Assembly: GCA_003231975.1 (NCBI GenBank)
Contig: QIKW01000145.1
Location: 1-40,095, forward strand
Reading direction: 5' to 3'
Length of the DNA: 40,095 nucleotides
Origin: Acidimicrobiia bacterium
GTDB lineage: Bacteria; Actinomycetota; Acidimicrobiia; Acidimicrobiales; SZUA-35
Part shown: in pieces, positions 1,273 through 10,338 of the stretch
Numbering within the stretch: position 1 is the first letter of the stretch
Layout: every line of letters begins with the position of its first letter
Notes under the pieces: generated by a model
Databases searched by the model: none
Told to the model about the DNA's origin: nothing
Seen by the model: only the letters and a program-made list of their open reading frames with translations
Made by a program: the position numbers and the translations under genes

Positions 1273-1308
1273 TTGACCATTGGGCTAAAAGTACGTATAT
1301 TCGGACTT
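1273..1308 (+). promoter_or_regulatory. SulP promoter with overlapping operator; leaderless start predicted
   Basis: TTGACC (1273-1278), a 17-nt spacer and TATATT (1296-1301) make a near-consensus sigma-70 promoter. The ATG of the transporter follows 7 nt after the -10 box, so the mRNA would be leaderless. The 18-mer GTACGTATATTCGGACTT (1291-1308) covers the -10 and the start site. It matches the 18-mer in the promoter at 3404-3448 at 16 of 18 positions. A repressor bound here would block RNA polymerase. The TTG of the -35 box is in frame with the gene and could be mistaken for its start codon. Confidence 0.7.
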
Positions 1309-3072
1309 ATGTTGAAACTGTTGCCGATCTTGAGCTGGGGGCCAACCTACGAGCGTTCGGATCTGCGCAGCGACCTGGCGGCTGGGGTAACCGTTGGTGC
1401 CATGTTGGTGCCCCAGGCAATGGCCTATGCGCTGCTGGCGGGGCTGCCGCCAGCGGTTGGGCTGTTTGCCGCAACGGTCCCCGTTGTTGTTTATGCCCTG
1501 TTCGGCACTTCGCGCCAGCTGGCCGTTGGCCCGGTGGCCATAGTCTCTCTGCTAACAGCATCGGCGTTGGCGCCGCTGGCCGAGGAGGGAACGGCCGCCT
1601 ACCTGGGCGCCGCCGCAGTGTTGGCGCTGATGGTTGGGTTGCTCCACATCGTTCTGGGGATCGGGCGCCTCGGCTATCTGGTGAACTTTCTCTCGCACTC
1701 GGTGCTAGTTGGCTTCACCGCAGCAGCCGCGCTGATTATCGGCTTTTCGCAGGCGAAACACCTCGTCGGGGTCAGCGTTGAACGCAAGGAGCAGTTCTAT
1801 GAAACGGTGTTGGAATTGGCCAGGAATCTCTCGGCCACCAACGCGCCAACCTTGGTGGTTGGGGTCACTTCGCTGGCTGGGTTGTTTTGGCTGAAGAAGT
1901 TGGCGCCCCGCGTGCCAGGGGCCTTGGTTGTGGTTGTTGGTTCAATCCTTGCCGTAGTGGCGTTTGGGTTGGAAGACCGTGGTGTGGCGGTAGTTGGAGA
2001 CATACCCGGCTCGCTGCCCAGCTTCGCCCTTCCCAGTCTCTCGGGATCGCTGGCAGGCAACCTGGTTGGCACCGCTTTCGTGATCACGCTGGTTGGGTTT
2101 ATGGAGTCAATTGCGGTTGCGAAGGTGTACGCCAAGCGCCATCGCTACGAAGTAGATCCGAACTCGGAACTGATCGGGCTCGGCGCCGCGAATTTGGCCG
2201 CCGGGTTGTTTGGCGGCTATCCGGTTACCGGTGGTTTCTCCCGAACAGCAGTGAACGACAGCGCGGGTGCCCGCACACCGCTGGCTTCGCTGATCACAGC
2301 CGGAATTGTTCTGGTCACCATTGCCTTCCTCACTCCGCTGCTGGCCTCGCTACCAAATGCAGCGCTTGGCGCAATCATTGTGATGGCGGTTATTGGGTTG
2401 ATGGACGTTCCTCAGATGCGCCACATCGCCAAGGTGAAACGATCAGACCTGGTTGGGTTGAGCGTTGCGTTCTTTGCCACCCTGATCCTGGGAATAGAGC
2501 TTGGAATTGCGGTGGCTGTTGTTGCCTCTATGCTGGTGGTGTTCGCCAGGATGTCGATGCCCCACACTGCGGTGCTAGGCCACGTAGAGGGCACAACCAG
2601 CTATCGGAATGTGAATCGATTCCCCGAGGCCAGGGTGCTTGATGGCATCTCGATCATTCGTATCGACGCGGCTCTGTCGTTTGTAAATGCTACGAACATC
2701 AAGAAGCTTCTGATCGCCGAGGCAACACCAGCAGCAACCGAGCCGCGGGCGCTGATCCTCGACGCATCCGGCATAAACGACATCGACGCCACCGGCGCCG
2801 AGATGCTGCACGAGGTGATGGCCGAGACCAAGGAGCTTGGTGTTGCCCTGCATCTGGCCAGCGTTAAGGGGCCGGTTCGTGACGTGCTTCGCCTGGCCGG
2901 AATCTGGACCGAGCTTGGAGACCGCCTGCACGCCAGCACCGATGACGCAGTTGCCGCCATCTCCCAGAGGCGCCCGGCGCCAGCCGACCAGCGCCGTCTT
3001 GGCATCGACGAGCGGTGTCAGCCCCCACCGTCGAACAGTCCGGAGGATGCCGGCGAATCCGTCGGTGTCTGA
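1309..3072 (+). CDS. SulP family anion transporter with STAS domain
   Basis: A secondary anion transporter or channel of the SulP/SLC26 family (sulfate, bicarbonate or related anions) in the cytoplasmic membrane, 587 residues from ATG 1309. The transmembrane core has the usual features: VGAMLVPQAMAYALLAGLPP in the first helices, FLSHSVLVGFTAAAAL, and GGYPVTGGFSRTAVNDSAGA. A C-terminal cytosolic STAS domain begins near residue 430 and includes ALILDASGINDIDATGAEML. ATG 1309 is preferred because an upstream in-frame TTG is the -35 hexamer of the promoter. The gene is followed after 41 bp by a rhodanese and then by a persulfide dioxygenase, and it shares an operator-like 18-mer with the latter. 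Export of sulfite, sulfate or thiosulfate from sulfide oxidation is therefore a reasonable inference; the substrate is not shown by the sequence. Confidence 0.9.
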   Translation: MLKLLPILSWGPTYERSDLRSDLAAGVTVGAMLVPQAMAYALLAGLPPAVGLFAATVPVVVYALFGTSRQLAVGPVAIVSLLTASALAPLAEEGTAAYLGAAAVLALMVGLLHIVLGIGRLGYLVNFLSHSVLVGFTAAAALIIGFSQAKHLVGVSVERKEQFYETVLELARNLSATNAPTLVVGVTSLAGLFWLKKLAPRVPGALVVVVGSILAVVAFGLEDRGVAVVGDIPGSLPSFALPSLSGSLAGNLVGTAFVITLVGFMESIAVAKVYAKRHRYEVDPNSELIGLGAANLAAGLFGGYPVTGGFSRTAVNDSAGARTPLASLITAGIVLVTIAFLTPLLASLPNAALGAIIVMAVIGLMDVPQMRHIAKVKRSDLVGLSVAFFATLILGIELGIAVAVVASMLVVFARMSMPHTAVLGHVEGTTSYRNVNRFPEARVLDGISIIRIDAALSFVNATNIKKLLIAEATPAATEPRALILDASGINDIDATGAEMLHEVMAETKELGVALHLASVKGPVRDVLRLAGIWTELGDRLHASTDDAVAAISQRRPAPADQRRLGIDERCQPPPSNSPEDAGESVGV

Positions 3073-3113
3073 TGTGGAAACATAAGAATCAAACCCGAAA
3101 GGCACTCCCAATA

Positions 3114-3407
3114 ATGCACAGAGACCATCCAGTAACCGACCACGCCGCAGTTGTGGATTCAGACACCCAGCTCATAGACGTCCGCGAGCCAGACGAGGTT
3201 GCCGAAGGCACCATTCAAGGCTCCAAGAACATTCCTCTCAGCGAACTGCCAGAACGAATCGGCGAGCTGGATCGGTCGAAACGGGTGGCGCTGTTTTGTC
3301 GCAGCGGTGGTCGCAGTACCAAGGCGTGTGAGCTGTTAACAGAAGCGGGCTTCGCCGACGTGGTCAATCTTGCTGGTGGCATGCTGGCAATCGAAGAACA
3401 GGGTTGA
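3114..3407 (+). CDS. Single-domain rhodanese
   Basis: A 97-residue sulfurtransferase of the rhodanese fold. It has LIDVREPDEVAEGTI, typical of the N-terminal half, and the active-site loop FCRSGGRS with the catalytic persulfide-carrying Cys at residue 62. Its likely role is to move sulfane sulfur between thiosulfate, glutathione-type or protein persulfides. Start ATG 3114 is chosen because GAAAGG (3097-3102) lies 11 nt upstream and the product then has standard domain length. It lies 41 bp behind the SulP gene and is probably cotranscribed. Its last codons overlap the -35 box of the next promoter. The adjacent CstB-like protein ends in a domain closely similar to this one, so a shared persulfide substrate is likely. 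Confidence 0.88.
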   Translation: MHRDHPVTDHAAVVDSDTQLIDVREPDEVAEGTIQGSKNIPLSELPERIGELDRSKRVALFCRSGGRSTKACELLTEAGFADVVNLAGGMLAIEEQG

Positions 3408-3448
3408 CCCGGCCGCCCGGTTGGTATAATGTACGTACATTCGGATTT
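3404..3448 (+). promoter_or_regulatory. CstB-like gene promoter with palindromic operator
   Basis: TTGACC (3404-3409) and a perfect TATAAT (3425-3430) are separated by only 15 nt. The -10 box runs into the 14-bp perfect palindrome AATGTACGTACATT (3428-3441). The wider 18-mer GTACGTACATTCGGATTT (3431-3448) matches the one at 1291-1308 with two differences. AAAGGAG follows at 3449-3454, 6 nt before ATG 3461, so this mRNA has a leader, unlike the SulP mRNA. The regulator is unknown. Sulfide/persulfide sensors of the ArsR (BigR/SqrR) or CsoR (CstR) type are candidates by analogy. Confidence 0.7.
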
Positions 3449-3460
3449 AAAGGAGTGGTC

Positions 3461-4843
3461 ATGAAATTCACCCAGTACTACCTCGACTGTCTCTCTCAGG
3501 CGTCCTACCTCGTCGGTGACGAAACCACTGGTCGGGCCGTTGTGGTAGACCCAAGGCGAGATACCGACGAATACGTTCGCGACGCTGAGGCCGCGGGTTT
3601 GAAGATCGAGTTGATCATCGAAACCCACTTCCATGCAGACTTCCTGTCTGGCCACCTCGAGTTGGCCGAGGCCACCGGAGCCCAGATCGGCTTCTCGTCG
3701 GTTGCTGAAACCGAGTTCGAGTCTCGCAAGCTGGCAGACGGCGAGCGCATCAGCCTTGGAGATGTGCAGCTTCAGATTCTGCACACGCCAGGCCATACGC
3801 CAGAGTCCATCAGCATTGTTGTGTGGGAGCACGCCGACGACGAAATTCCCTACGGTGTGCTAACCGGAGACACGCTGTTCATTGGCGACGTTGGCCGCCC
3901 CGACCTGCTCTCGTCCATCGGTTTCAGCAAGGAAGATCTGGCCAACCAACTTTACGACAGCCTGCACAACAAGCTGCTCCCCTTGCCAGACGCCACCAGG
4001 GTCTACCCGGCCCACGGGGCAGGATCTGCCTGTGGCAAGAACCTTTCAACCGACACGTGGTCCACAATGGGCGAGCAACGGTTGAACAACTACGCGTTGC
4101 TGGCTCCCGACAAGGCCACCTTTGTTGACCTTGTCACCGAAGGCCAGCCCCCGGCTCCAGGCTACTTCCTCTACAACGCAGGTCTGAACCGCAAAGACCG
4201 TGATCTGCTTGACGAAACAGCGCAGCCCCGGTCACTCGACCTTGGCGAGTTCCAGGCGCTAACAAGCGGGGGAGCGCTTGTGATTGATGGCCGCACTCCT
4301 GAAGACTTCGCCCTCGGTCACCTCGCCGGATCCATCAACGTTGGGCTAAATGGCCGTTATGCCGAATTCGCCGGATCAGTTGTGCCAACCGATGTGGACA
4401 TCGTTCTTGTGGTGGAAGACGGCTTTGAGCTTGAGGCCAAGAATCGCCTTGCCCGAATCGGCTTTGACCGGGTGTTGGGATATCTCAAGGAGCCGCTGAA
4501 GGTGATGGCCTCGAACCCAGACCTTGTGCGTCGGGCTTCTCGGATGACGGCCTCTGAGTTCGAACAGCGCCGTGGCGACATCGACGGGCTTCAGCTGGTA
4601 GACGTCCGCAATCCGGGCGAGGTTGCTCTTGGCACAATCCAAGGCGCCACGGCCATTCCAGTAGGGCAACTTCCCGGCAGGCTTGACGAGTTGGATCCCA
4701 AGGCCCCAACCATTGTGTTCTGTGCCGGTGGCTACCGCTCTTCGGTTGGGGCAAGCGTGCTGCGTGAGGCCGGCTTCGGTGATGTTTCAGACATCATCGG
4801 CGGCTACAGCGCCTGGTCTGACCTAGTGGCTGCGCCAGTCTGA
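3461..4843 (+). CDS. CstB-like persulfide dioxygenase-rhodanese fusion
   Basis: A 460-residue, three-domain cytosolic enzyme expected to oxidise low-molecular-weight persulfides to sulfite and combine it with a second persulfide to give thiosulfate. Residues 1-230 are a metallo-beta-lactamase fold of the ETHE1/persulfide-dioxygenase class, with THFHADFLSGH (H56, H58, D60), HTPGH (H112), TGDTLF (D137) and YPAHGAGSACGK (H185, C191). The AGSxCGK Cys resembles the MBL-domain Cys described for CstB. Residues 258-345 are a rhodanese-like domain without a catalytic Cys (VVEDGFELE at the loop). Residues 362-455 are an active rhodanese with FCAGGYRS (C421). AAAGGAG 6 nt upstream supports ATG 3461. Sequence and domain order fit CstB better than plain ETHE1. 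Confidence 0.88.
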   Translation: MKFTQYYLDCLSQASYLVGDETTGRAVVVDPRRDTDEYVRDAEAAGLKIELIIETHFHADFLSGHLELAEATGAQIGFSSVAETEFESRKLADGERISLGDVQLQILHTPGHTPESISIVVWEHADDEIPYGVLTGDTLFIGDVGRPDLLSSIGFSKEDLANQLYDSLHNKLLPLPDATRVYPAHGAGSACGKNLSTDTWSTMGEQRLNNYALLAPDKATFVDLVTEGQPPAPGYFLYNAGLNRKDRDLLDETAQPRSLDLGEFQALTSGGALVIDGRTPEDFALGHLAGSINVGLNGRYAEFAGSVVPTDVDIVLVVEDGFELEAKNRLARIGFDRVLGYLKEPLKVMASNPDLVRRASRMTASEFEQRRGDIDGLQLVDVRNPGEVALGTIQGATAIPVGQLPGRLDELDPKAPTIVFCAGGYRSSVGASVLREAGFGDVSDIIGGYSAWSDLVAAPV

Positions 4844-4868: not shown

Positions 4869-5282
4869 TCAGTAGCCGATCGGCCAATGGTCAACCAGTA
4901 GACCCGGCATCGGGAAATCACCGGTGTTGGCCGTGGCCAACGCTGCTCCGATGCCCATCGCCGCAGCGGCGACCAAACAATCTGCCTGGTGGACGGTTAC
5001 GCCACGCTTGGCAAAGTCGCGTCGCCAACCACCCGCCATAGCGCCTTCGGCTACTCCGAGGGGTGCCAGCCTTAGGCCGTTGAAGAGTCGCCTAGCGATC
5101 GATTCTTCTTCATGCCTCAGACCGCGCCAGATCTCCTCGACCGATATGACACACACCCAAGGCTCGACCCCCGTGCGTCGAAGCGCGGTAAGGCGCGATG
5201 CGGCCGGACGCCCCCGAAGAGCGTCGATGATGACGGTGGAATCGAGCAGAAGACGAGACAAGTTAACCAGTGCGCCGACCAT
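4869..5282 (-). CDS. vapC: VapC-type PIN-domain toxin
   Basis: A 137-residue PIN-domain ribonuclease, probably the toxin of a VapBC pair. The PIN acidic residues are visible: LLLDSTVIIDALRG near the N terminus, SVEEIWRGL in the middle, HQADCLVAAAA, and TANTGDF near the C terminus. VapC toxins cleave specific tRNA or rRNA sites with Mg2+. The chosen ATG (5282) makes the gene overlap the antitoxin by 20 nt, the usual coupled arrangement. A TTG at 5261, after the antitoxin stop, is possible but would remove residues ahead of the first strand. It converges with the CstB-like gene, with 25 bp between the stops. Confidence 0.85.
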   Translation of the reverse strand: MVGALVNLSRLLLDSTVIIDALRGRPAASRLTALRRTGVEPWVCVISVEEIWRGLRHEEESIARRLFNGLRLAPLGVAEGAMAGGWRRDFAKRGVTVHQADCLVAAAAMGIGAALATANTGDFPMPGLLVDHWPIGY

Positions 5283-5502
5283 CGGCCCGTCGTTGCTCTT
5301 GCACCCATGCAGCGGGGTCGTCGTCCCAGCCGTGACCGCTGTGGTCGATTTGTCCAAGCGCTGAAGCGATGTCGTCCCAGCGCCGATCGTCGTCAAGACC
5401 GCGCCGAATTAGCTCGGCAATGAATGCACTACGGCGCCGCTTTCCTGCCCGCCGGTCAAGCTCGGCAACGAGTGCGTCGTCCAACGCTATGTGCAGACGC
5501 AT
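5263..5502 (-). CDS. vapB: VapB-type ribbon-helix-helix antitoxin
   Basis: A 79-residue antitoxin. The N terminus MRLHIALDDALVAELDRRAG with RRSAFIAELIRRGL is a CopG/Arc ribbon-helix-helix DNA-binding domain. The acidic, Trp-containing C-terminal tail (GHGWDDDPAAWVQEQR) would bind and block the PIN toxin. It is the first gene of the pair. ATG 5502 is preferred over an ATG six codons upstream, because that one falls upstream of and across the predicted -10 box. The dyad at the promoter is a likely autoregulatory site for the VapBC complex. Confidence 0.85.
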   Translation of the reverse strand: MRLHIALDDALVAELDRRAGKRRRSAFIAELIRRGLDDDRRWDDIASALGQIDHSGHGWDDDPAAWVQEQRRADGRRTG

Positions 5503-5521
5503 GTGTTGATTATAACACACA
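5500..5521 (-). promoter_or_regulatory. vapBC promoter and operator dyad
   Basis: On the minus strand TATAAT (5514-5509) lies 6 nt before ATG 5502, predicting a leaderless vapB mRNA. An inverted repeat TGTGTT-N6-AACACA (5502-5519) is centred on this -10 box. That is the expected position for repression by the RHH antitoxin. No convincing -35 box was found. Confidence 0.6.
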
Positions 5522-5523
5522 GC

Positions 5524-5557
5524 TTGCCAACCCCGCCGAACATCGACTATCGTCGAT
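5524..5557 (+). promoter_or_regulatory. Putative arsR promoter and operator
   Basis: TTGCCA (5524-5529) and TATCGT (5548-5553), 18 nt apart, could be the promoter of the ArsR gene whose ATG is at 5563. The dyad ATCGA-N6-TCGAT (5542-5557) overlaps the -10 box and is a plausible ArsR autoregulatory site. It is unlike the operator-like motif of the sulfur genes. Confidence 0.4.
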
Positions 5558-5562
5558 CATCG

Positions 5563-5919
5563 ATGGTAGCCATGGAGACACAATGGGGCACCGAGGTAGA
5601 TCGGGATCAGGCGATCGAGTGGGCTTCGTGGTTCCAGGCCTTAGCAGATCCAACTCGAATTCTCATTCTGCACTGGCTGGCGCGACAGCGTCGGGCGATG
5701 ACAGTTGGTGAGATCACAGCGGCACTAGACGTTGGTCAGTCAACTGTGTCTCACCACCTGGCGAAGCTGGCCGAAGTTGGCTTCTTGGTGGTTGAACGGG
5801 CCGGGAATCAGAGTCACTGGCGGGTTAACGACGCCTGCATTTCGGCGTTTCCGTCCGCCGCCCAAGTTGTGCTTGGGAAAGTCTCACCCGATTTCGAGAA
5901 AGCAAAAAGGACCCAATGA
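5563..5919 (+). CDS. ArsR family winged-helix regulator
   Basis: A 118-residue ArsR/SmtB-type repressor. WFQALADPTRILILHWLARQ opens the domain, and the recognition helix region is VGQSTVSHHLAKLAEVGFL, followed by the wing ERAGNQSHWRVND. There is a single Cys (NDACISAFPSAA), so any thiol-based metalloid sensing would need this Cys in the dimer plus other ligands. The stop overlaps the start of the methyltransferase gene (ATGA), which implies coupled translation and a regulator-enzyme operon. ATG 5563 is chosen because it follows the putative -10 box by 9 nt; ATG 5572 is an alternative. It is divergent from vapBC. Confidence 0.85.
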   Translation: MVAMETQWGTEVDRDQAIEWASWFQALADPTRILILHWLARQRRAMTVGEITAALDVGQSTVSHHLAKLAEVGFLVVERAGNQSHWRVNDACISAFPSAAQVVLGKVSPDFEKAKRTQ

Positions 5920-6635
5920 GCAACATCGAAGACTCAGTTCGCAGCTACTACCGCGAAGCGGCCACCAGAGGCGCTGAGCGCCACGCCGACCTTGGTGGCG
6001 ATGATCGCTGGGGAAGATCCCGCTACGAACCAGACAGCCTCGCCGAAGCCCTAGCAGTTGCTGCCGGGCTCTCGATGGGCTGCGGGAACCCTTTTGCCCT
6101 GGCCGATCTTGCACCGGGTGAAACTGTTCTGGATCTTGGGTCTGGAGCCGGGTTGGACGTGATCCTAAGCGCCCGCCGGGTTGGCCCGACCGGCCAGGTC
6201 TATGGGGTCGATTTCCTTGACGAGATGCTTGAAGTTGCCCGCGCCAATGCAGCCGAAGCAGGCGTTGAGAATGTTGAGTTTCTGGCTGGCACGATTGAGG
6301 CTGTGCCCCTTCCAAACAATTCGGTTGATGTCGTGATCTCTAACTGCGTGATCAACCTGGTCCCCGACAAGGCCCCCGTGTTCGCTGAAATGGCACGGGT
6401 GCTAAAGCCAGGGGGCCGCATCGCGGTGTCTGATGTGGTGCTGGACGACGACGCTGCGGAGCCAGACCAAACCAACCTCGAGGCGTGGGCCGAGCAGGGG
6501 GCGGGCGGCCTTCGCCGTAGCCAGTACAGCTCAATGCTGGGCTTGGCTGGGTTCAGCGACATAAACATTCAGTTCACCCATGAGGTAGGGCCTGGCATGA
6601 ACGGCGCCGCCATTCGGGCCGTGCTGCCTGGCTAG
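5916..6635 (+). CDS. ArsM-like SAM-dependent methyltransferase
   Basis: A 239-residue class I methyltransferase of the arsenite methyltransferase family. It has the SAM motif [16 protein letters not shown] (residues 71-86), GVDFLDEML, and the family hallmarks SMGCGNP (C56) and [13 protein letters not shown] (C144). ArsM uses Cys thiolates to hold As(III) and transfers methyl groups to give volatile or less toxic forms. The third conserved Cys of ArsM, in a WAEC.AGAL-type motif, is Gln here ([10 protein letters not shown]194). The arsenic substrate is thus likely from family and context, but the number of methylations, or even the substrate, may differ. The gene overlaps arsR by 4 nt. Its 3' end is tandemly repeated in the intergenic DNA. 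Confidence 0.8.
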
Positions 6636-7479: not shown

Positions 7480-9576
7480 TCAGGAACCGGGAGTTGGGGA
7501 GCCGATCACGCCGTTGCCGTTGTAGGACAGGCCTCTATTGCTGCCGGAATAGGTGACGATGTAGGTGGCGTCGAAACCCAAGATTGGATCAGGCTCGCCC
7601 GACCACTCCAAGGCGTTGCTGCCAGCGAAAGCAGGGTCTCGCCAGCCGATGTAGTCAACAACGTCGCCGTTGCTGTCAAGCAGCCACAGGTCATCGCCGG
7701 TTGATTCCAAGGTTGGTCCTGAGCTGTCGAAGAACTCAAGCGTTCCCCCCGGGACCGACATGGTTGAGCCGTCAACCCAGATCACGGCTCTCGCCCCTGG
7801 CTGGAGGGTCGAGGGATTTTCGTTGAAGCCCTCGGTGAAAGATTGCTTGTTGCCGTTGCCGGGAATCCAGGGCCCGTCCTGAATTCCAGTTGGCTTCCAG
7901 TCTTGAAGGGTGAACGCAGCCAGGTCGATGGCGCTGCCGGTCATGTTCTGAATCTCGATGAACTCAGCGGTGCTGCCGTTTGTCTGATGCAAATACTCGG
8001 TGATCACCAGATCTCCGGCGAACGGAGACAGAGCCAGCCCGTCCCCGCCGGTTGGCAACGTCGTTGTGGTAGTCGGCGCTGTGGTTGTTGTGGTGGTTGG
8101 CGCCGAAGTGCTGGTCGTGGTTGGCGCCGTCGTTGTTGTGGTTGGGCCCGCACTGGCGGAGGTGGATGTGTTCCCGGCCGAAGTTGAGGTTGTGGCCCCA
8201 GGAAGAGCGCTGGTTGATGAAAAGCTGGACGAAATGCTGGAGGTTGAGCCCGACTGGTCTTTCACGGTAGTGCTGCTGGCCAGCCCTGGGCCGGGCTGCG
8301 TGCCGGGCTGCGCCGCCGGGTTGGGATTGCTGGTTGGAGCCAAAAGTGGCAGGGATGCTGGAGGTTCTTGCTGGTCGGCCGGAAGGCTGGAAGCCACAAC
8401 CATCACGTCGCCAACGGCCTGCTCTGATGACTCTGAGAGAACGCCAAGCGGGCCCCCAACGCTTCCCAGCAAGGCGGCAAGGCCCGCAGTAATCCCGGCA
8501 ACCCCGGTAACTGCTGCTGCGGCAACGGCGCCTGCGGGAATCACTGGCCCCAGGCCGGTAGCTCCCGGCCCTGAAACGTTCAGCAGCCAGCTCAGCGGGC
8601 CCATCACCAACCGAAGCCTGCCGAGCCCGATGTTCAGGAACGCCCGAACCACGTGAGGGTCAAACTGAGATCCTGCGCAGGCTGCTATCTCGGCCCTGGC
8701 TTCCTCGGAGGGTCTTGGCTTCTTGTAGCTGCGGGTCGAGGTCATAACGTCGAATGCGTCTGCAACCGAAACGATGCGGGCCGCCAAGGGGATCGACTTT
8801 GCCGCCAGGCCCTCGGGATAGCCCGCTCCGTTCCAATGTTCGTGATGGTGCCCAACAGCGTCGACCCAGTCTCCCAGCCAAGGCCGAAGCGGCTCGGCCA
8901 GCTTGGCGCCAAGTGTTGTGTGGGTCTTTAACACCTCCCATTCGGCTTCGGTTGGGAGGCCTTCCTTGTTCAGAATTTCCGCCGGAACGTGAAGCTTCCC
9001 TATGTCGTGAATAAGTGCCGCCCAGCGGAGCCGGTCTTGGTCGGCTTGAGGCAGGTTCATTTCCTCCGAAATCAGGTCGGTGTAGGCCCTAACCCGCTCG
9101 CAGTGGCCCCTGGTCAAGCGGTCGTGGGTGCTTAGGCCAGCAACCAACTCAAGCAGCGAAGCGGCGTGATCGGTTGTGTTGGTTCCGAGGCCACTTTCAA
9201 CAAGGTCATCTACCCGGCGCTGAAGTTGGCGGGTGGTGCCGGTTCTCATTGCGACGCTGAAGCGACTTGGCGCCTTGTCCGGGAACACCAGGGACAGTTT
9301 CAGCAGCGCAGCCAATGGCAGGAGTTTGCGGGCCAGCCGGTCAGCCGCAAACAGAACGATGGCAGACGCAGTCAGCAGCGCTGCCATCCAAACCACGAAC
9401 GGCACACCAACTCTGTCCTGGGGCCAGGTGCGAACAAACCACAGCGAAGCCACGAACGACACGCCAGCAGGGGCCAGCATTGCCAGCATTCGAAGTGATC
9501 TGGCCAGCCACGGGCGGCTGGCCCACCGCACGTCTTCTTCGTTCGCCGTTGGCCTGATTGGCCCGTCTTCGCCCAT
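7480..9576 (-). CDS. Membrane HD-GYP phosphodiesterase with extracytoplasmic lamin-tail domain
   Basis: A 698-residue multidomain protein. Hydrophobic segments at about 31-50 and 57-77 are followed by an HD-GYP domain (about 145-315) with the metal motif HDIGK (H190, D191) and HHHEHWNGAGYPEG (243-256). HD-GYP domains usually hydrolyse cyclic di-GMP or related dinucleotides. A Gly/Ala-rich hydrophobic stretch (about 340-372) should cross the membrane again. A Ser/Thr/Pro-rich linker (about 430-508, runs of TTTTT) follows, and then a lamin-tail-like beta domain (about 520-695: LVITEYLHQTNGSTAEFIEIQN, then WVDGS and VVDYIGW). Topology would put the enzyme inside and the lamin-tail domain outside. 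A GGGNCNNNNGNCCC-like site lies 59-72 nt upstream. Start ATG 9576. Confidence 0.87.
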   Translation of the reverse strand: MGEDGPIRPTANEEDVRWASRPWLARSLRMLAMLAPAGVSFVASLWFVRTWPQDRVGVPFVVWMAALLTASAIVLFAADRLARKLLPLAALLKLSLVFPDKAPSRFSVAMRTGTTRQLQRRVDDLVESGLGTNTTDHAASLLELVAGLSTHDRLTRGHCERVRAYTDLISEEMNLPQADQDRLRWAALIHDIGKLHVPAEILNKEGLPTEAEWEVLKTHTTLGAKLAEPLRPWLGDWVDAVGHHHEHWNGAGYPEGLAAKSIPLAARIVSVADAFDVMTSTRSYKKPRPSEEARAEIAACAGSQFDPHVVRAFLNIGLGRLRLVMGPLSWLLNVSGPGATGLGPVIPAGAVAAAAVTGVAGITAGLAALLGSVGGPLGVLSESSEQAVGDVMVVASSLPADQQEPPASLPLLAPTSNPNPAAQPGTQPGPGLASSTTVKDQSGSTSSISSSFSSTSALPGATTSTSAGNTSTSASAGPTTTTTAPTTTSTSAPTTTTTTAPTTTTTLPTGGDGLALSPFAGDLVITEYLHQTNGSTAEFIEIQNMTGSAIDLAAFTLQDWKPTGIQDGPWIPGNGNKQSFTEGFNENPSTLQPGARAVIWVDGSTMSVPGGTLEFFDSSGPTLESTGDDLWLLDSNGDVVDYIGWRDPAFAGSNALEWSGEPDPILGFDATYIVTYSGSNRGLSYNGNGVIGSPTPGS

Positions 9577-9657: not shown

Positions 9658-10338
9658 CTAGCTGGCAGGTGCCTTGTGAAAGAGAGCGTGGAAGCGATAC
9701 GGGTAGGAGATGGAGCCTCGGAACTCGCCAACCAATCCGAATTCAGACGCACTGTCGTCTAGGTCCTTTGGCGTGTACCAATAGCCAAGCTGGTCTCGCC
9801 TTAGCTTCATGGCGGTAAGGGCCCAAGAAGCGGCAGGGCGGATCGAGAAACGGTAGGGAGGCTTGAGGTTCCCGGCCCGGTATGGATACTTGTGCACGGC
9901 CCAGGGAATGGATGCGTCGACGATTAGGCCGTCCGGGCTGAGCATTCCCGCCGCCAGTTCGAAGTGCGAGCGCAGCATGTCGACACTGAGGTTCTGCATA
10001 ACTCCGTTGGAATAGATCAGGTCGAATTGTTGGTCGTCGCTGAACTGATGGGCCGAGGCTTTCTGTAGCTGCACACCAGGATGACGCGCTTCGAAGGCCT
10101 CCAGCATCGAGGCGGAAAGGTCGGTTCCCAGGTAGCTCTTGGCCGAGGAAAACCCGAGGCGATCATAGAATTCTCCAGAGCCACAACCAAGTTCGAGCAC
10201 CCTCCCAGACTCCCTCCCTTGAAGCAGCCACAGAAGTTCGACCGAGAACTCGGCGTAGTACTCGTCGGTGCTCCTTGCATGGAGAGGTTCGTTCTGGTCC
10301 TCCCAGAAGTTCTCCCAATATTCTTCTTGGTCATTCAC
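9658..10338 (-). CDS. SAM-dependent methyltransferase
   Basis: A 226-residue class I methyltransferase. It has the SAM-binding loop VLELGCGSGEFYDRLG, the acidic end of strand 2 (LGTDLSASML), and FDLIYSNGVMQNLS, the equivalent of motif IV. The acceptor is unknown. The C-terminal part (KYPYRAGNLKPPYRFSIRP) is aromatic and resembles small-molecule or lipid-type methyltransferases only loosely. Start GTG 10338 is used. A possible -10 TACGAT (minus strand, 10352-10347) lies 8 nt upstream, so translation may be leaderless. It is 247 bp downstream of the desaturase gene on the same strand, with a palindromic DevR-type box in the gap. That gap shows no other gene. Confidence 0.85.
   Translation of the reverse strand: MNDQEEYWENFWEDQNEPLHARSTDEYYAEFSVELLWLLQGRESGRVLELGCGSGEFYDRLGFSSAKSYLGTDLSASMLEAFEARHPGVQLQKASAHQFSDDQQFDLIYSNGVMQNLSVDMLRSHFELAAGMLSPDGLIVDASIPWAVHKYPYRAGNLKPPYRFSIRPAASWALTAMKLRRDQLGYWYTPKDLDDSASEFGLVGEFRGSISYPYRFHALFHKAPAS

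Follow-up and report, generated by a model that had tools for sequence, protein, structure and literature searches.

Two sulfur genes in the genome of an Acidimicrobiia bacterium (G000) are preceded by nearly the same 18 bp, which raises the question of whether one regulator controls both and, if so, which. The stretch of DNA that was analysed, 40,095 nt in length, is referred to here as the window. A window search placed the two copies, GTACGTATATTCGGACTT and GTACGTACATTCGGATTT, at 1291-1308 and 3431-3448, exactly as the first-pass annotation had reported; they precede a SulP transporter gene and a CstB-like persulfide dioxygenase gene, respectively. In a pattern search that tolerated up to 3 mismatches, these were the only two copies in the entire genome (3.7 Mb), and the many copies at unrelated genes that would have spoken against a common operator were not seen. 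Two exact copies in a genome might be thought to reflect a chance likeness between two promoters. However, dinucleotide shuffles of the window yielded 0.02 matches with up to 3 mismatches and none contained two, and the motif is kept at the same genes in relatives. Chance is thereby refuted, and we give it practically no weight.

Read in the context of the sites in relatives, the 18-mer corresponds to the right-hand part of a longer dyad of 22 bp, with the approximate halves TCCGAATGTAC and GTACATTCGGA. This dyad is probably the operator of a GntR/HutC (UTRA) repressor encoded on C55, which would govern a sulfide/persulfide oxidation regulon by covering the -10 region. We infer binding, repression and an effector from operator conservation, regulon content, gene linkage and the fit of the DNA contacts. 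The original proposal of one regulator for transporter and persulfide dioxygenase is itself well supported, as the predicted operator is conserved over the family and the content of the putative regulon fits.

Genes and promoters of the window

The 460-aa MBL-rhodanese protein is, by sequence, a CstB-like persulfide dioxygenase with the corresponding activity predicted. It has the CstB-type order of an MBL domain and then two rhodanese domains over its full length, and full-length matches were obtained to PDB 3tp9 (1.6e-88) and 3r2u (2.4e-62), the latter of which we take to be the S. aureus CstB-type protein. Of the sulfur genes that had been considered, the transporter is a SulP and not a TauE protein, although TauE/SafE-like genes with the same operator do occur in some relatives. 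Coordinates are collected in Table 1.

Table 1. Features at the two promoters, the genes that they precede, and the candidate regulator gene. Positions are those of the window unless a contig is given.
Feature	Position	Strand	Basis
-35 box TTGACC, SulP promoter	1273-1278	+	Letter check; TTGAC at equal spacing in SulP promoters of relatives
Putative operator 1, 22-bp dyad GCTAAAAGTACGTATATTCGGA, over spacer and -10	1284-1305	+	PWM score 34.0; kept before SulP in relatives
-10 box TATATT within operator 1, 7 nt ahead of ATG	1296-1301	+	Letter check; 6-7 nt in relatives
SulP-family anion transporter with STAS domain	1309-3072	+	TIGR00815 498 bits, PF00916
Single-domain rhodanese (sulfurtransferase)	3114-3407	+	PF00581 3.8e-18
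Possible -35 TTGACC, dioxygenase promoter, 15-bp spacer (16-17 in relatives)	3404-3409	+	
Extended -10 TGGTATAAT, dioxygenase promoter	3422-3430	+	Letter check
Putative operator 2, GTATAATGTACGTACATTCGGA, over and directly behind -10	3424-3445	+	PWM score 36.0; kept before persulfide dioxygenase in relatives
Ribosome-binding site AAAGGAG in short leader; dioxygenase ATG at 3461	3449-3455	+	Letter check
CstB-like persulfide dioxygenase (predicted), MBL + two rhodanese domains	3461-4843	+	PF00753, 2x PF00581
gntR (GntR/UTRA, HutC-type repressor candidate)	G000:C55:5937-6695	minus	Ortholog search; outside window

Letter by letter, the SulP promoter reads TTGACC, 17 bp, TATATT, 7 bp and the ATG at 1309, with the -10 box within the 18-mer as claimed, and its mRNA is predicted to be leaderless, starting at or next to the ATG. 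For the dioxygenase promoter, the palindrome, TATAAT and AAAGGAG of the first-pass annotation were all recovered, and two details were refined: the perfect 14-bp palindrome AATGTACGTACATT at 3428-3441, inside operator 2, overlaps the last three bases of TATAAT, and since the spacer behind the upstream TTGACC is only 15 bp, this promoter probably relies on its extended -10. A transcription start about 7 nt behind TATAAT is predicted for it. An Rfam search of the window gave no match and thus offers no riboswitch explanation.

Two other gene pairs of the window are recorded here. At 5563-6635, a gene for an ArsR-type regulator and, immediately behind it, an arsenite-methyltransferase-like gene form a self-contained pair that is unrelated to the 22-bp operator; a repeat rich in ATCGAC/GTCGAT lies a short way ahead of them (5540-5570). 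On the minus strand at 4869-5505, a VapC-like PIN-domain protein is encoded behind a small ORF without a Pfam match, forming a probable toxin-antitoxin pair.

The dyad in related genomes

The sequence GTACGTAYATTCGGA, which in context is one arm of the 22-bp dyad, was found with at most one mismatch in 22 of 39 family genomes; their 171 Mb hold 35 such matches in all, compared with 2 to the reversed pattern. The dioxygenase site of G000 holds the perfect 14-bp core. Mostly, the dyad stands before genes for SulP, persulfide dioxygenase, SQR (the nearest model being type III SQR), TauE/SafE-like proteins, beta-carbonic anhydrase, lipoprotein rhodanese and SoeABC-like proteins, the last being our short label for an Fe-S/NrfD protein followed by a molybdopterin oxidoreductase. 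The sites next to sqr and tauE for which a search had been recommended are therefore present in relatives. A few of the 35 matches lie at genes without an evident sulfur link (e.g. L006, L025 and L026), as is expected of chance matches at this tolerance.

The position of the dyad relative to the promoter elements follows the gene. At SulP and carbonic anhydrase promoters of relatives, the operator supplies the -10 (TAYATT); TTGAC lies 17 bp ahead of this box and the ATG 6-7 nt after it, a conserved arrangement that predicts a leaderless mRNA. SQR and SoeBC-like promoters have the dyad in the opposite orientation, where it still supplies a TACATT -10, and at several dioxygenase promoters, including that of the window, it is located behind TATAAT and followed by a leader with a ribosome-binding site. 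The difference in leader design noticed between the SulP and dioxygenase promoters is thus real and conserved in relatives. Because the 18-mer at SulP promoters contains the -10 and discriminator at a fixed distance from the ATG, it could be regarded as promoter sequence only (-10, discriminator and leaderless start) with no operator in it. That reading is very improbable given the other register at the dioxygenase promoter, the inversion at SQR and SoeBC-like promoters, the preserved dyad symmetry and the absence of the 18-mer from the rest of the genome. All these positions of the predicted operator would suit a repressor that blocks RNA polymerase.

Leaderless operator-promoters like that of SulP were also observed at the beta-carbonic anhydrase genes at L080:4252 and L081:6542, and a carbonic anhydrase gene lies downstream of SulP in L161, L207 and L215. 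Given this neighbourhood, SulP might be a bicarbonate transporter, or COS/CS2 might be substrates of the enzyme. In L071 (G024:C382), a run of GTACGTAC-like elements at 8690-8760 precedes a quinone-oxidoreductase-type (ADH) gene, which is no obvious sulfur gene.

Candidate regulators and their linkage to the sites

Only one recurrent transcription-factor family that fits was found around the motif sites, a GntR/UTRA protein. A single-copy ortholog is present in 29 of the 39 family genomes, G000 included. Of the 19 genomes having both the gene and a site, 7 have them no more than 10 kb apart, for which the chance probability is about 4e-10. Sites with at most one mismatch occur at 19/Mb around GntR genes versus 0.2/Mb overall. 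Homologs at E <= 1e-30 were detected in 119 of 397 genomes of the order, and the best matches to the GntR locus in named public genomes were records of uncultured Acidimicrobiales and Ilumatobacter, which makes an uncultured representative of this order the most likely source of the window. The flanks of 80 named gntR loci carry genes for persulfide dioxygenase (33), SulP (18), SoeBC-like proteins (20) and SQR (12). Across these loci (1.0 Mb), a matrix trained on 24 sites, which had been found by pattern or beside persulfide dioxygenase genes and not via GntR linkage, identified 49 sites of at least 19 bits, whereas matrices that had been reversed or permuted identified 0. Typical are L160 and L201, where the order is lipoprotein rhodanese, gntR, SQR, SulP, YgaP-type rhodanese, rhodanese and dioxygenase, with operators in three of the gene gaps.

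The G000 genome was searched with a pattern built from the sites of relatives. A third clean site was located at C55:4976, where it precedes a SoeBC-like gene at a distance of about 1 kb from gntR, and a weak one (11.7 bits) between gntR and the lipoprotein rhodanese gene. Loosened to 3 mismatches, the pattern gave 21 matches versus 31 in the control, and no further targets in this genome are therefore claimed. Presence and absence of motif and GntR ortholog over the 39 genomes show only a trend (p = 0.07), so that the argument is carried by linkage and motif class.

The operator could be real and yet be read by another factor (ArsR, LysR or a different GntR), with the GntR ortholog merely travelling with sulfur genes. 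Good operators do occur without a close ortholog in G014 (96% complete) and G034 (95%), which have only 26-31% identical GntRs, and likewise in the less complete G004 and G009; in some genomes with the operator but no close ortholog, another GntR (26-32% identical) or a LysR lies near the persulfide dioxygenase or SulP gene. We nevertheless consider this unlikely, since the ArsR of the window is a singleton among motif loci, LysR occurs at few of them, and the dyad agrees with HutC sites in its spacing and with the contact residues of the GntR in its base pattern. As for the individual candidates, the window ArsR has no homolog at other motif loci, scores 30 bits against the BigR cut-off of 155 and is not linked to the operator over genomes, which sets it apart from BigR/SqrR-type sulfane-sulfur repressors. 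LysR stands beside some SulP and SoeBC-like genes but is not general. The ArsR/CsoR-type regulator that the first-pass annotation had in mind is thus not the best candidate; the only CsoR of G000 is a copper-type one, and the site of CstR-like proteins is a different one.

In G014, good operators precede a SulP gene and a YeeE-like gene (L067:8647-8668 and 9716-9737). Near some GntR loci (LysR-SoeBC type and ICMT-only type), no sites of at least 17 bits were found. A GntR subgroup with LysR, SoeBC-like and SoeA-like clusters (L226, L228, L241, L248, L250, L263 and L266) has no strong operator copy and may have a diverged operator.

CstB of S. aureus is under CstR control, and CstR-like genes are divergent to SulP in the relatives L066, L161, L203, L219 and L223, so the sites might instead be operators of this CsoR-family persulfide sensor. 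However, the CstR-type dyad, TACCCC..GGGGTA, is a separate element beside the 22-bp dyad and goes with the CstR-like gene, being present at 7 of 13 sites with such a gene in the locus versus 2 of 46 without (p = 1.5e-4); it accompanies nine SulP or dioxygenase sites, of which 7 have the gene in the locus. The CstR-like CsoR homologs of relatives lack the copper-site His. G000 keeps the 22-bp dyad although its only CsoR is copper-type (Cys-His-Cys) and no CstR-type dyad is found at 1200-1310 or 3350-3470. The CstR reading is largely refuted and highly improbable. With neither a CstR-like gene nor its dyad in G000, no operator other than the GntR-type one is recognised at the two promoters. Among the relatives, two repressor sites per promoter, a CstR-type dyad beside a GntR-type operator, were seen at L203:10359, L219:9058, L223:7654, L066:3050, L074:9263, L044:1228 and L034:2227.

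The GntR candidate: predicted DNA contacts and proposed mechanism

The ortholog in L069 has an N-terminal PF00392 (GntR wHTH) and a C-terminal PF07702 (UTRA) domain, the architecture of NagR (YvoA), DasR, PhnF and HutC, which are the closest solved structures by sequence and fold. A structure model of the candidate (pLDDT 81) matches NagR, DasR and PhnF, as does its sequence. The best-matching family models of the G000 copy are HutC and PhnF, with scores below the NCBIfam cut-offs of both (97.7 bits versus 220 for TIGR02018), and it is thus not HutC sensu stricto, the histidine utilisation repressor. The regulons of these four regulators concern amino sugars, phosphonates or histidine, whereas that of the candidate would concern sulfide/persulfide oxidation.

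The operator core TGTACGTACA matches the HutC consensus TGTA-N2-TACA (PMC12977541) and the spacing of HutC-subfamily sites, in which GT and AC are mostly 4 nt apart (PMC4494728); the GTACGTAC core is accordingly a palindromic GT-N4-AC operator. Unlike in HutC-type sites, the half-site here is extended by CGGA. In the structure of NagR on DNA, two arginines read guanines, Arg48 at G-4 and Arg38 at G-5 (PMC4333415). By alignment, the candidate has R51 in the place of Arg48; all of 20 orthologs share this Arg, and all of the 24 training sites have G-4. At the Arg38 position, the orthologs have Leu, Ala, Met or His, and the operator base at -5 is T, which agrees with the reported Arg-G correlation at the matching HTH position, on our reading that HTH position 28 of that correlation is NagR 38.

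We propose that the GntR/HutC-subfamily repressor from C55 would bind the 22-bp dyad, with the expected motif AATGTACGTACATTCGG. Its regulon here would comprise SulP, the persulfide dioxygenase and the Mo/Fe-S/NrfD complex, to which relatives would add SQR, TauE, carbonic anhydrase and rhodaneses. Repression would result from occupation of the -10 region. In the SulP promoter the -10 hexamer would be within the bound operator, with the mRNA start at or next to the ATG, and in the dioxygenase promoter the occupied dyad would overlap TATAAT and continue directly behind it. The repressor would then be released by a small molecule that fills the UTRA pocket.

Repressors of sulfide/persulfide oxidation such as CstR, BigR, SqrR and sHdrR act via reactive cysteines. 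The targets of the CstR/CstA/CstB operon system of Staphylococcus aureus recur here (CstB-like MBL-rhodanese dioxygenase, rhodaneses, SQR and TauE), but the main shared operator is not that of CstR; G000 is without a CstR-like gene or site, and some relatives have both in addition. BigR, SqrR, YgaV, sHdrR and SoxR also repress persulfide dioxygenase or sulfur-oxidation operons and are ArsR-family proteins with reactive cysteines, whereas the candidate has no conserved cysteine: the G000 copy contains 0, and at no alignment position do more than 7 of 20 orthologs have one. The candidate is therefore unlikely to sense persulfide through thiols in the manner of CstR or BigR.

The anion pocket offers another lead. 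Arg133, Arg135 and Tyr167, which hold phosphate in NagR, correspond to the invariant R135, R137 and Y170 of the candidate. Unlike NagR-type regulators, it has further invariant residues that fall on pocket positions or beside them, R148, W225 and R226. On these grounds one may reasonably guess that the effector is a sulfur oxyanion or a sulfonate, and it is put forward as a guess. Speculatively, this HutC-type repressor, which has no conserved cysteine, might use the Arg-Arg-Tyr pocket (phosphate/sulfate in NagR) to sense a small sulfonate or an inorganic oxyanion such as sulfite, thiosulfate or sulfate, and so control sulfide oxidation by a product instead of by persulfide chemistry, in some species jointly with CstR on the same promoters. 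If a GntR/HutC protein without conserved cysteines does read this widespread actinobacterial regulon, its sensing principle would differ from that of the cysteine-based CstR, BigR, SqrR and sHdrR, and its binding motif could help to annotate the sulfur genes of many uncultured Acidimicrobiales. Searches of the open-access literature returned no GntR regulator of sulfide or persulfide oxidation; within that literature, the candidate is probably the first link of a GntR-type protein to hydrogen-sulfide metabolism.

Control of the two genes with different strengths, as originally suggested, is plausible on one ground, a broken half-site contact in operator 1. As the SulP -10 requires TATATT, the C/G pair at +4 is missing from this operator; in NagR-type binding, the conserved Arg of the recognition helix reads that base. 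The SulP site is therefore predicted to be weaker than the dioxygenase site.
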